A stretch of DNA of 38,657 bases, taken from contig JANQHJ010000152.1 in the NCBI GenBank assembly GCA_028282745.1, positions 1 through 38,657 of the forward strand. Direction: 5' to 3'. A model generated the notes under the pieces. That model had not been told where the DNA came from. It made no database searches and was given only the letters and a program-made list of their open reading frames with translations. Made by a program: the position numbers and the translations under genes. Of the stretch, positions 2 to 38,657 are shown piece by piece; the first letter of the stretch is position 1; each line of letters opens with the position of its first letter. Source of the stretch: Sedimentisphaerales bacterium (GTDB taxonomy: Bacteria; Planctomycetota; Phycisphaerae; Sedimentisphaerales; Anaerobacaceae).

Positions 2-1060
2 ACCGACAGGCAACTCTTTAAAGAGAAATTACATTTTATGTTTGTCCGGCCGTTCAAGCTTTACTTCAGTACTTCACTGCGAGAGCAATGGATGCGTAAT
101 ATGGTTGAAGAAGGAAAGAAGAAACACATACTTACCGATGAGGATGCAAATACAATCCTATCACAGTTAAAAGAAAAATACATACAGCGGTATCTGATAA
201 GTCTTGTTGTTCACTTGATGACTTTGCCGCTGACCCAGATCGTTTCTTTTATAGTAGCTGCGGTTTATTATAAAAAGACCGGCGATGAAATCGGAGCCGG
301 CGGTATTCTTGTGCTATTCCAGATAATACCAGTTTCACCCGGTTCAATTGCAAGAGGTTCGTATGCTGTTGGGATAGCGATCTATGATCGAAGTTTCAAG
401 AATTACAATATCGCGGTCTTTTTAAGCTTCTTCAAATACATCGGTTATCTTGGCTTTCCGATCCAGATGACGAACCACTATCCGGCAATAGCCAGATTTA
501 TGGCAAGTCACTGGGCAACGGAGGCAGTGCATATTGTGCCCGTATTCGGTGAGCGCGGCGCGCTTTTGGAGCATTGGGTATTTTGCCTGTTCTATAACTG
601 GCCTTTGACCATCCGCAGGCGAATGGCAAGGAGAGCAGAACTTCGAACAGCTAAGCCTTCGAGATACTGGCAGGTAGTTCCAATTGCTTTGTTAGCCGGT
701 GCGGTATTCGCATCGATAGACTGGTTCTATGCAAATACCCAAGAAACACTGCCGACCATGAAGAACATCTGGTACGCAATTTTACTAATACCAATACTGT
801 GCGGAGCAGCTGTTACACTATTTGGGCGCGGAACGGTTTTGTGGAAACGATTTATTTCGGCTACCATTGCCGGGTTGCTAACTGGTGGTTTGTATTCAAC
901 TGCTTCATACTTTATAGCGAAACATTTCGAGGTCGGATTAGAGCCGCTCAAGACGTGGCCGTTCAGACTGTTTTTCTTCGCGGTGTTTGCCTGTATTGGG
1001 GCGATCATTACCGAATTGAAAATGCCCGATCCCGGTCTGAAAAATAAAGCTAAACTCTAA
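2..1060 (+). CDS. Polytopic membrane protein, 5'-truncated by the window edge
   Basis: The frame is open to the first base, so the gene probably starts outside the window. The first ATG, at 38, has only a distant purine run before it and is preceded in frame by ordinary codons. About seven or eight hydrophobic segments are visible. The first follows a charged, helical N-terminal part carrying WMRNMVEEG and LTDEDANTIL. A conserved-looking block (FFKYIGYLGFPIQM, HWATEAVHIVPVFGE, FYNWPLTIRRRMARR) sits between segments. I recall similar membrane regions forming the C-terminus of larger planctomycete proteins, some with an N-terminal lipopolysaccharide-kinase-like domain, but nothing here proves it. 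Function unknown. The gene ends just before a palindromic repeat and is not linked to the next gene. Confidence 0.7.
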   Translation, partial: TDRQLFKEKLHFMFVRPFKLYFSTSLREQWMRNMVEEGKKKHILTDEDANTILSQLKEKYIQRYLISLVVHLMTLPLTQIVSFIVAAVYYKKTGDEIGAGGILVLFQIIPVSPGSIARGSYAVGIAIYDRSFKNYNIAVFLSFFKYIGYLGFPIQMTNHYPAIARFMASHWATEAVHIVPVFGERGALLEHWVFCLFYNWPLTIRRRMARRAELRTAKPSRYWQVVPIALLAGAVFASIDWFYANTQETLPTMKNIWYAILLIPILCGAAVTLFGRGTVLWKRFISATIAGLLTGGLYSTASYFIAKHFEVGLEPLKTWPFRLFFFAVFACIGAIITELKMPDPGLKNKAKL

Positions 1061-35890: not shown

Positions 35891-36666
35891 TTCACCCTCC
35901 CCTCCAAATACTCATCAATATTATTAAAAACTTCCGGATGTATGAGCTTTTCTAAAACCTCACCCAAGTCACCACTGCAACCGGTTCTTCTTCTAAGACC
36001 TTCTGCTGTATCAAATGCCAAAATCTCACCGTGTGCGACGATTGCTATGCGATGCGCTATCGGCTCGACCAGTCCAGGTACCGGTACCGCCATCATGACT
36101 GTAATATCTTTTCTATCTGCCAGATTTTTTAATACCCTGCTCAACGCCAGCAGCGCAGAAGAGTCCAAGCCGCCAGAGAAAGGTTCGTCCAGTATCATGA
36201 CCGATGCTTCCGTTATCAACGCCGAACAAATTCCGATTTTCTTCTTCTGACCTGTTGAATAAGAGCGAACTGGCGAATCTGCTTGTTCTTCCAAATCGAA
36301 AAGCTTTAATAATTGCTCACTATGATCCATCAGCCTTTCTTCTTCAACTTCATATAGCCTTCCTACAGCTAAAAGGAATTCCCTGCCCGTACTAAAGGGT
36401 GGCAGAAACGGATCATCCGGCAAATACACGGTTTTCTTCCGGATCGCAATTTCCTCTTTTACAGAGTTGCGACGTTTGAGCCCGTCTATCTCAACGTATC
36501 CTTTTATAGACGACATAACTCCGCCCACCACACCCAGCAAAGTGCTCTTACCCATCCCGTTAGGCCCCATTACCGCTACCAGTTCCCCGGTCTCTATCTT
36601 CAACGAAACATTTTTAAGGATAGGCTTAACACCGTAATGATGCCAAACATCAACTATATTGATCAT
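35887..36666 (-). CDS. ABC transporter ATP-binding protein with altered Q- and H-loops
   Basis: Cytoplasmic ATPase driving the membrane partner encoded next. Walker A GPNGMGKST (34-42), signature YSTGQKKK (136-143) and Walker B VMILDEP (156-162) are present. Two other catalytic elements differ. The Q-loop reads YLPDDPFL, with Asp84 where Gln is expected. The switch position reads MAVPVPG, with Pro195 in the place of the H-loop His, in register with the downstream HRIAIVAHGEI. The second change suggests slow or altered ATP hydrolysis. ATG 36666 has AAGGAG upstream, 60 bases after the comM stop. Confidence 0.92.
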   Translation of the reverse strand: MINIVDVWHHYGVKPILKNVSLKIETGELVAVMGPNGMGKSTLLGVVGGVMSSIKGYVEIDGLKRRNSVKEEIAIRKKTVYLPDDPFLPPFSTGREFLLAVGRLYEVEEERLMDHSEQLLKLFDLEEQADSPVRSYSTGQKKKIGICSALITEASVMILDEPFSGGLDSSALLALSRVLKNLADRKDITVMMAVPVPGLVEPIAHRIAIVAHGEILAFDTAEGLRRRTGCSGDLGEVLEKLIHPEVFNNIDEYLEGRVK

Positions 36667-36726
36667 TTGGATTACTCCTTATAAGGGTATCATTTATTAA
36701 TAAGGACGCCCCTCTTAACTATTTCT

Positions 36727-38256
36727 TCATAACTTTCTGTCGAGTTTTCGATAGCTTATCGCTTCGGCTATGTGTTCGGGCCGGATATGATCACAGTTTT
36801 CCAGATCAGCTATCGTTCGTGCGACTTTGCAAATCTTATCGTGGGCCCTTGCGCTTAGGCCGAACTCTATCATTGCCTGCTTGAGCATCATCTCCGATTG
36901 CTTGTCAAGCTCACAATATTTCTGCACCTGCTTATGCGTCATTACGGAATTGGTCATCACCTTGCCGTCACCAAACCGTTTGGCCTGAACAGCTCTTGCG
37001 TTAACCACACTTTCTCTTATGGAATCCGAGCTCTGTTGGCCGGTTTTGCTCCGCAATTTTCTAAATTCGACCGGCGGCACCTCGATATGAATATCTATCC
37101 TGTCCATCAACGGCCCAGAAATCTTGGACAAATATTTCTCGACCTGGTTTGGCGTACACTTACACCGCCTGTAGTCACTGCCGTAATAACCGCACGGGCA
37201 AGGATTACATGATGCTACCAGCATAAAATTAGCTGGATATTTATTTGTACGTTTTGTCCGCGATACAGTAACCGTTCCATCCTCTAAAGGTTGACGTATC
37301 ATCTCCAGCACATTTCTCGGAAACTCGGTGAACTCATCCAGAAACAATATCCCATGATGAGCCAGTGACAGCTCGCCCGGCCTGGCATCTGTGCCACCTC
37401 CTATAAGAGCGGGCCCGCTCGCCGTATGATGCGGTGTCCGCACGGGGCGAATTGCCATTAATGCCCTGTTTTTATCCAATAACCCAACTGAAGAATATAT
37501 CCGCGTTGTCTCCAGTGATTCAGCCAGATTCAAAGGTGGTAATATCGTCGCCAGCCGCTGAGCCAACATTGTCTTGCCGGCACCGGGCGGGCCTATCATT
37601 AATATATTATGTCCTCCAGCCGCCGCTACCGTCAGAGCCCGCTTGACGGATTCCTGGCCCTTGACCTCGGCAAAGTCAAAATCGTACCTGCTCTCGGCAT
37701 CGAATACGCCATTGATATCTAAGATAGTTGTCTCAAGCGGCAACCGCCCGGATAAAAATTCCACCGTCTGCGATAACGATCCCACACCATAAACCTCCAG
37801 CCCATCCACAACTGCAGCTTCTTTGGCATTATCGATCGGCACTATGATGCCTCGATATCCATTCGCCGCGGCTGTCATCGCCATACTAAGCACACCATTG
37901 ACGCTCCTCACCCGCCCATCCAGGGCAAGCTCGCCGACAATAACAAAATCTTTGGCAACCGTACTGCTGAATACGTTGTTACCTATCAGCATCCCAAGCG
38001 CGATCGGCAAATCGAAAGCCGGGCCTTCTTTCTTGATATCGGCAGGAGCAAGGTTGACCAGCGACTGTGTTTTGGGATAATTATAGCCGCAGTTAATAAT
38101 CGCGCTTTTAACCCGCTCAGTGCTCTCTTTGACCGCTGCGTCGGGCAGTCCAACGATTACCGATTTCTCGAATCCGCCCCGCGCGACATCAACTTCGACC
38201 TCACAGATTATCCCCTCGATACCAACAAGCGCAACACTATGCAATCGTGCCAACAT
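36727..38256 (-). CDS. comM: ComM/YifB-family Mg-chelatase-like AAA+ ATPase
   Basis: Family linked to branch migration during natural transformation and homologous recombination; its presence hints at DNA uptake or repair but does not prove competence. The N-terminal Lon-like domain begins MLARLHSVALVGIEG and includes GLPDAAVKESTERVK. Walker A is IGPPGAGKTMLAQRL, Walker B LFLDEFTEF, and the cysteine cluster SCNPCPCGYYG lies in the zinc-binding insert. The C-terminal part has SARAHDKICKVARTIADL. ATG 38256 has GAGG eight bases upstream; GTG 38262 is too close to it. Length 509 aa is normal. Confidence 0.95.
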   Translation of the reverse strand: MLARLHSVALVGIEGIICEVEVDVARGGFEKSVIVGLPDAAVKESTERVKSAIINCGYNYPKTQSLVNLAPADIKKEGPAFDLPIALGMLIGNNVFSSTVAKDFVIVGELALDGRVRSVNGVLSMAMTAAANGYRGIIVPIDNAKEAAVVDGLEVYGVGSLSQTVEFLSGRLPLETTILDINGVFDAESRYDFDFAEVKGQESVKRALTVAAAGGHNILMIGPPGAGKTMLAQRLATILPPLNLAESLETTRIYSSVGLLDKNRALMAIRPVRTPHHTASGPALIGGGTDARPGELSLAHHGILFLDEFTEFPRNVLEMIRQPLEDGTVTVSRTKRTNKYPANFMLVASCNPCPCGYYGSDYRRCKCTPNQVEKYLSKISGPLMDRIDIHIEVPPVEFRKLRSKTGQQSSDSIRESVVNARAVQAKRFGDGKVMTNSVMTHKQVQKYCELDKQSEMMLKQAMIEFGLSARAHDKICKVARTIADLENCDHIRPEHIAEAISYRKLDRKL

Positions 38257-38447
38257 AATCACTTCCTCATTCTGGGCCTGAAAAAACGCATTTTAGCCCT
38301 CAAATCGCCACCCCGCAAGCAATTTTCAAGATTAAATACTTCCAGAATCCACCACAAGGGTCAAACTTTCTTATCTACCTAAGCCCCAACAAACCAATGA
38401 CTTACATGAATAGCGCCAAAAATATGTTAAAATACGCAAAAAATCCC
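38257..38447. other. Intergenic region upstream of comM
   Basis: No reading frame with a ribosome site is visible here. Apart from a weak promoter for comM at 38290-38318, I see nothing recognisable. It separates comM from the divergent RNA transcription unit at 38448-38611. Confidence 0.5.
38290..38318 (-). promoter_or_regulatory. Weak promoter candidate for comM
   Basis: On the - strand TTGCGG, a 17-base spacer and TAAAAT (38290-38295), 34 bases before the comM ATG. Only half the -35 matches consensus. Confidence 0.35.
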
Positions 38448-38475
38448 TTGTCAGAAACGCTATCTCGTGTATAAT
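38448..38475 (+). promoter_or_regulatory. Sigma70-type promoter of the candidate small RNA
   Basis: TTGTCA at 38448-38453, a 16-base spacer and a perfect TATAAT at 38470-38475. Predicted transcription start is 38482-38483. Confidence 0.7.
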
Positions 38476-38481
38476 TGTAGT

Positions 38482-38611
38482 AGATTATGTTAATCTTTTC
38501 TTCTTTTTAAACTTGGTTCGGTAAGGCAGCTGCATAACAAATAACTTTGCAGTAAATACGATTTTTTGGTTGTCTTACAAAAGCTGGAATCCCATGATTC
38601 CAGCTTTTTTT
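38482..38611 (+). ncRNA. Candidate structured small RNA, about 130 nt
   Basis: A good promoter is followed by a perfect terminator with no meaningful reading frame between. A long-range helix is possible between GTAAGGC at 38521-38527 and GTCTTAC at 38572-38578 (seven pairs including one G-U), enclosing a small hairpin CTGCA/TGCAG (38530-38534, 38548-38552). The 5' 39 bases are pyrimidine-rich and unpaired. I do not recognise 6S RNA, a known riboswitch or a T-box. It could be a trans-acting sRNA, or a leader whose terminator controls the gene beginning near 38642. A decoy or leader for a short peptide is not excluded. Confidence 0.6.
38579..38611 (+). terminator. Intrinsic terminator
   Basis: AAGCTGGAATC at 38581-38591 pairs perfectly with GATTCCAGCTT at 38596-38606 around a CCAT loop. 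The stem can extend by two A-T pairs and runs into a seven-T tract at 38605-38611. Confidence 0.92.
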
Positions 38612-38641
38612 ATGTACACTAAATCCCAGGCGGATAAGTAA

Positions 38642-38657
38642 ATGAAGGAAAAGCTCG
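38642..38657 (+). CDS. Possible start of a downstream gene, cut by the window edge
   Basis: ATG 38642 opens MKEKL and runs off the edge. AGG lies about 11 bases upstream, a marginal ribosome site, and only five codons can be read. If real, the preceding terminator would lie in its leader. Confidence 0.25.

Follow-up and report, generated by a model that had tools for sequence, protein, structure and literature searches.

Near its right end, the window (the whole 38,657-nucleotide stretch analysed here) carries what, judging from sequence, is a previously undescribed free-standing small RNA (sRNA) gene conserved across one planctomycete order. We consider it a new RNA family within a known kind, the trans-encoded base-pairing sRNAs, and it very probably regulates a predicted target gene by base-pairing. 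Two conserved motifs that the fold leaves unpaired, UCUUUUCUUCUU (box 1) and CUUGGUUU (box 2), have their complements, AAACCAAG and AAGAAGAAAAGA, arranged in antiparallel order in the 5' UTR of a single unlinked gene. The reading that we prefer, with a probability of roughly 0.78, is a trans-encoded, Hfq-independent sRNA that pairs with the split site of this one mRNA, blocks initiation and represses the target. The promoter of its own, the covarying stem-loop, the terminator, the two exposed boxes, the complementary boxes in an unlinked mRNA and the compensatory changes between them were all observed in the genomes compared, while it is inferred, without expression or binding data, that the duplex forms in the cell, excludes the 30S subunit and represses the target.

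Layout and conservation of the sRNA gene

The window is the complete contig C127 of a 2.57-Mb assembly (genome G000) and ends 16 nt into an ORF that starts at 38642. A preliminary description of this DNA had listed a promoter, TTGTCA-16-TATAAT, followed by about 130 nt without a gene and a terminator with an 11-bp stem, and all three were recovered. The sigma70-type promoter (38448..38475, + strand; -35 TTGTCA at 38448-38453, a 16-nt spacer and -10 TATAAT at 38470-38475) agrees with the consensus at 11 of 12 positions and ranks best among 6 promoter-like sites in 36500-38657. Promoters scoring at least 9/12 were found in 88 of 93 homologue upstream regions compared with 23 of 288 random stretches; most have the form TTGCAA...TATAAT and usually lie 17-27 nt upstream of the first motif of the RNA. 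The small RNA of about 130 nt (38482..38611, + strand), whose 5' end is inferred from the promoter and 3' end from the terminator in the absence of expression data, is overlapped by no coding gene in the window and has a folding energy of -34.2 kcal/mol versus -20.9 +/- 3.3 for shuffled sequences (z -4.1; 0 of 200). Its intrinsic terminator (38579..38611, + strand) is a covarying helix with a conserved base of the AAAAGCUGG type, in which 38579-38591 pairs with 38596-38608 around a 4-nt loop, followed by a T-run to 38611; the stem comes to 13 bp when A-U pairs are counted. This is the only terminator-like site in the 2.1 kb of 36500-38657, and since shuffles of the region average 1.9 such sites, the terminator on its own is not significant. 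The left neighbour is a divergent comM/yifB gene (Mg-chelatase-like; 36727..38262, - strand; Pfam PF01078, 9e-92). A trans-encoded base-pairing sRNA should have its own promoter and its own terminator, and this RNA has both.

Box 1 is an unpaired pyrimidine tract (UCUUUUCUUCUUUUU, 38494..38508, + strand) that is near-invariant in the family, and box 2 (CUUGGUUC, 38512..38519, + strand) is likewise unpaired, with a near-invariant UUGG core; the mean unpaired probability is 0.84 for each, and outside the apical loop these are the most conserved unpaired parts of the sRNA. They are followed by the P1 stem, a covarying helix between GTAAGGCAGC (38521..38530, + strand) and GTTGTCTTAC (38569..38578, + strand), which encloses an apical loop (38531..38568, + strand) containing a AUAACUUUGCAGU-like sequence with the consensus UUAUAAGUUUGCnnUAUAUU in a 93-sequence alignment. 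This conserved loop motif may be a binding site for a protein or for another RNA. RNAalifold predicted P1 and the terminator only. The helix proposed earlier between 38521-38527 and 38572-38578 is present, extends to the full ten pairs of P1 and covaries strongly; the small hairpin described inside it (CTGCA/TGCAG) does exist in the window's genome, but is peculiar to it and not conserved.

In the 93-sequence alignment, 22 of 23 pairs were changed on both sides, with 346 covarying cells versus 91 in shuffled alignments; none of 500 shuffles reached 346, and slid pairings gave 63 at most. This alignment was fitted to the covariance model and hence leans towards the structure. An independent MAFFT alignment of eleven sequences gave 21 covarying cells in 13 pairs, versus 7.3. 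We regard conservation as the decisive evidence that the predicted unit is real.

When the window's own RNA served as the query, nucleotide search retrieved the terminator only, in one relative (G047:C166). The region upstream of comM in G040 (L023) carried a look-alike unit and was used as a query, giving clear homologues in about a dozen genomes, of which eleven sequences were aligned; with this better query from beside comM, G047:C166 proved to be a true homologue. At E <= 1, covariance model R1 detected the sRNA in 58 of the 89 genomes of the window's family, in nearly all of these as a single strong match. Genomes in five further families of the order were also matched, and in the window's own genome the match covers 38494-38611 (96.9 bits, E 6.7e-17). 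A second covariance model, R2, was derived from 93 sequences. Among 397 genomes of the class it had matches in 68, and among 392 of the phylum in 10, all of them within the window's order; the covariance models gave no sRNA match in the other sampled orders of the class or phylum. The E-values of these models are rough (short calibration). An exact-motif scan returned records of Planctomycetota, Phycisphaerae and Sedimentisphaerales, together with chance matches in other phyla. Overall, over half of the genomes sampled in the order carry the sRNA, almost always once per genome. Two copies were seen in G118, where the extra copy is degenerate, lies in tandem and lacks a proper terminator (L086:2779-2915), and in G030, where similar copies are on different contigs (L126/L127).

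No Rfam 15 family reached its gathering score over the sRNA in the window and 10 homologous loci, where the only families found were two tRNAs elsewhere, outside the sRNA. A weak covariance match to L20_leader (RF00558; 22.5 bits, gathering score 58.7) reflects a likeness due to the terminator. With no Rfam family, homologues across the order and none outside it in the genomes sampled, the earlier suggestion that this might be a new planctomycete RNA was borne out.

A split complementary site in an unlinked mRNA leader

The exact complement of box 1 was searched for in 36 genomes and 40 non-self sites were examined. Most were intragenic, and seven, in seven genomes, immediately preceded the start of genes of a single family; an eighth leader of this family was reached via another locus, for a total of eight genomes and five genera. 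In all eight leaders the complement of box 2, ACCA(A/G)G, is also present, placed as antiparallel pairing requires, and this sequence was not used in the search that found them. The two leader boxes flank a hairpin, GCAGAG...CUCUGC, and this arrangement is closely followed by a Shine-Dalgarno-like AAGGAAGG and the AUG. We infer that box 1 is the pairing region for AAGAAGAAAAGA-type sites, and box 2 that for GAACCAAG, in the target 5' UTR. The 12-mer complement of box 1 showed no clear genome-wide enrichment and only the context of its matches is informative; since box 1 pairs with any purine-rich leader and the enrichment is unclear, further targets remain possible. A purine-rich leader, AAGAAGAAAAG, precedes a prepilin gene in G015 (L231, G015:C1:415034), which is a possible second target.

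With leader model R3, about 55 genomes of the window's family gave matches, mainly to a single leader each; the window's own genome is among them (G000:C53:228-303, E 4.3e-8). Because R3 includes both boxes, their prevalence among its matches is biased and is not independent evidence. The leader hairpin covaries at 6 of 6 pairs (33 cells versus 5.9 shuffled). The sRNA and its target are unlinked, lying on C127 and C53 in G000 and, in single-contig genomes, at 2,363,916 versus 2,095,552 (G045) and 2,226,538 versus 1,920,953 (G011). Four genomes had a leader and no sRNA match (G001, G010, G035 and G004) and four had the sRNA and no leader match (G007, G013, G024 and G006); detection limits, stricter filters and incomplete assemblies could not be separated from absence in these cases. 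Far upstream in the G000 leader (L359, ~465-500, minus strand) and in the aligned leaders there is a short GC-rich hairpin of the UUCGCCnnnGGCG type, followed by GAGAAAGGAGG and, after that, by another conserved stretch, UUCCUGCC...CCGG...; this element had no Rfam match and might represent either an ORF within the leader or an additional cis-element.

In the mechanism that we propose, box 2 would form about 8-10 bp and box 1 10-15 bp with the leader, and the leader hairpin would be left as the third arm of a junction. The duplex would abut or overlap the Shine-Dalgarno region and exclude the 30S subunit, so that synthesis of a secreted cohesin-like/dockerin protein would be repressed when the sRNA is made. 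The leader box 1 site mostly ends a few nt before AAGGAAGG and the start codon, and the block of initiation is therefore only inferred; in the window's genome an alternative pairing register reaches further, to the Shine-Dalgarno region. There are no data on the sign of regulation. Pairing of the same two RNAs might instead activate or protect the target, by freeing the ribosome site, shielding the 5' region of the mRNA from RNase or refolding the long leader, and this possibility, which we find unlikely yet serious, would accommodate the fact that in most genomes box 1 stops just short of the Shine-Dalgarno sequence, the conservation and covariation of the mRNA hairpin between the boxes and the additional conserved sequence upstream in the leader. 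It sits less easily with a duplex within the usual 30S footprint and with the alternative register of the window's genome. In our judgement, repression is about twice as probable as activation or mRNA stabilisation.

Hfq (PF17209) was not detected in any of 60 relatives, G000 included, and five control genomes were positive. Pairing is thus presumably Hfq-free, and the order seems to be without Hfq altogether. Classification as an Hfq-dependent sRNA, which presupposes that Hfq is encoded, was rejected.

Co-evolution of the sRNA and leader boxes

The pairing of sRNA and leader was compared between own and swapped leaders in 43 genomes of 27 genera with both RNAs, with two weak leader matches (G017 and G023) omitted. 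The summed duplex energy was -30.3 kcal/mol for own and -26.9 kcal/mol for swapped leaders, and the difference was found both for box 2 (-13.9 versus -11.9 kcal/mol) and for box 1 (-16.4 versus -15.0 kcal/mol), with 0 of 5000 permutations in each of the three comparisons; a shuffled-leader control gave -4.9 kcal/mol for box 2 and -11.3 kcal/mol for box 1. When one genome per genus was used, in five draws, none of 2000 permutations reached the observed value in any draw, although such draws reduce and do not remove the non-independence of related genomes. The permutation result was weaker with badly registered boxes (7/10000; ~80/2000 with one genome per genus), and the final boxes are fixed model columns. 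The inclusion of the boxes in R3 does not bias this test, since R3 carries no information on the sRNA of each genome.

The compensatory changes can be followed base by base. The window's CUUGGUUC (...UUC) faces GAACCAAG (GAA) in its own leader, relatives have UUGGUUU with AAACCAA, and G040 has UCUUCUCUUC with GAAGAGAAGA. Within a single genus, GUCUUGG occurs with CCAGGAC (G005) and GUUUUGG with CCAGAAC (G107), and in five genera a change of CUUGG to UUUGG in the sRNA is accompanied by a change of CCAAG to CCAAA or CCAGA in the leader. The swaps extend to other families, with GGUUUUGGUAUC and GUACCAAAAUC in G074 of family f2 (UUGGUAU with GUACCAA) and CUUUUUCUUCUU and AAGAAGAAAAAG in G133 of family f7; the boxes have diverged in both families. 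The f2 and f7 genes concerned are homologous to the target, with E-values of 5e-82 (G074), 6e-45 (G130) and 5e-15 (G133). Unconstrained cofolding produced the two-box duplex around the leader hairpin in G000, G105, G050, G040, G107 and G014. In 13 genomes the own target ranked first to seventh against 250 unrelated start regions, 0-6 of which paired as well. Conserved complementarity to an mRNA start, maintained by compensatory change, is what is expected of a base-pairing sRNA.

It is also conceivable that the sRNA is a housekeeping RNA that binds protein, being either 6S-like or a protein sponge, and that its match to the UTR is secondary: it is nearly always single copy and order-wide and has a conserved apical loop, and 6S RNA is itself single-copy, order-wide and structured. 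We consider this improbable, since, apart from the apical loop, conservation of unpaired sequence is highest in the two boxes that co-evolve with the UTR and since 6S RNA, with a different size and fold, is a separate single locus in genomes carrying the sRNA. The 6S RNA model (RF00013) scored below its gathering score on the sRNA, and the true 6S RNA of the window's genome is at G000:C61:10202-10386. It is harder still to believe that the complementarity is a non-functional by-product of purine-rich leaders and a pyrimidine-rich RNA: this might be argued for box 1 alone, which is low-complexity and whose 12-mer complement is not clearly enriched, but box 2 is not low-complexity, was unused in finding the UTRs, has the right order and spacing and co-varies with its site.

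Genomic neighbours, target protein and significance

The sRNA adjoins comM in several families and many relatives. It is often found 350-480 nt upstream of queA (L072, L074, L098, L114, L123, L155, L156 and others), which looks like an old position retained across families. Other genomes of the window's family have it flanked by a cupin gene and a prepilin gene, and in the remaining genomes the neighbours are unrelated or on the opposite strand, with varying distances and strands; neighbour names were taken from sequence motifs, except for comM (Pfam). The identity of the 38642 ORF (MKEKL...) cannot be assigned from the window because the contig stops at 38657; it may encode a prepilin, which the RNA of relatives often precedes (MKKxxGFTLIELLVV). 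Of the two arrangements that the preliminary description had offered, a free-standing sRNA or an attenuator, the first stands, since the variation of the neighbours excludes a constant leader role for the next gene. That the RNA attenuates transcription of the gene at 38642, or is a leader of riboswitch type for it, as a terminator 30 nt before a same-strand ORF and the structured leader might suggest, is the least credible reading of all, given that homologues are followed, at differing distances, by queA, by prepilins, or by genes that are unrelated or on the opposite strand, with no constant gene or pathway downstream, that the terminator is retained in nearly all homologues with no conserved antiterminator partner seen (no dedicated search for exclusive folds was made), and that no Rfam riboswitch family matches.

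The target protein has a signal-peptide-like N-terminal sequence, and Dockerin_1 (Pfam) was found in 5 of 41 members, with two members above the curated cut-off. Single-sequence structure prediction was uninformative and an alignment was needed; among solved structures, cohesins were the best Foldseek matches to the alignment-based model (pLDDT 88.7; E 4e-4 to 1e-3, probability about 1), with low TM-scores because the chain aligns only in part. We call the target a putative secreted cohesin-like/dockerin protein, a name that describes its likeness and not its function. The G000 target gene is cut by a contig end (80 residues).

The RsaE/RoxS-type sRNAs of Gram-positive bacteria are Hfq-independent or Hfq-indifferent and have C/U-rich unpaired seeds that pair at mRNA starts and an intrinsic terminator. 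The planctomycete sRNA resembles them in its predicted Hfq-free pairing of C/U-rich seeds at an mRNA start and in its terminator, but no sequence or Rfam relation was found, and it differs in its pair of fixed boxes and in having, in each genome, a single predicted dedicated target that is conserved. In OxyS-fhlA and other two-site pairs, two separate pairing sites are present on one mRNA leader, as they are here; the planctomycete pair would instead form an antiparallel two-part duplex flanking a hairpin, with a third arm, rather than two loop-loop contacts, and would do so without Hfq. The predicted target is unusually well supported, and a pairing site split by a hairpin is uncommon. A limited search of the literature found no described Planctomycetota sRNA with a target.

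We propose, tentatively, that this is a dedicated co-evolving sRNA-mRNA pair, kept throughout an Hfq-less order, in which recognition needs a three-way junction of two short helices and a hairpin and which controls a cellulosome-like surface protein. If this is true, the three-way junction could give the specificity and stability that Hfq supplies elsewhere. The sRNAs of Hfq-less lineages are poorly understood. Here, sequence alone has yielded a new RNA family, its partner mRNA and their predicted contact bases, and evolution has supplied the compensatory mutants, so that the mechanism is directly testable. The window's order is known from polysaccharide-rich, anoxic habitats, and the cohesin-like/dockerin-like target points to the control of a polysaccharide-related surface protein.
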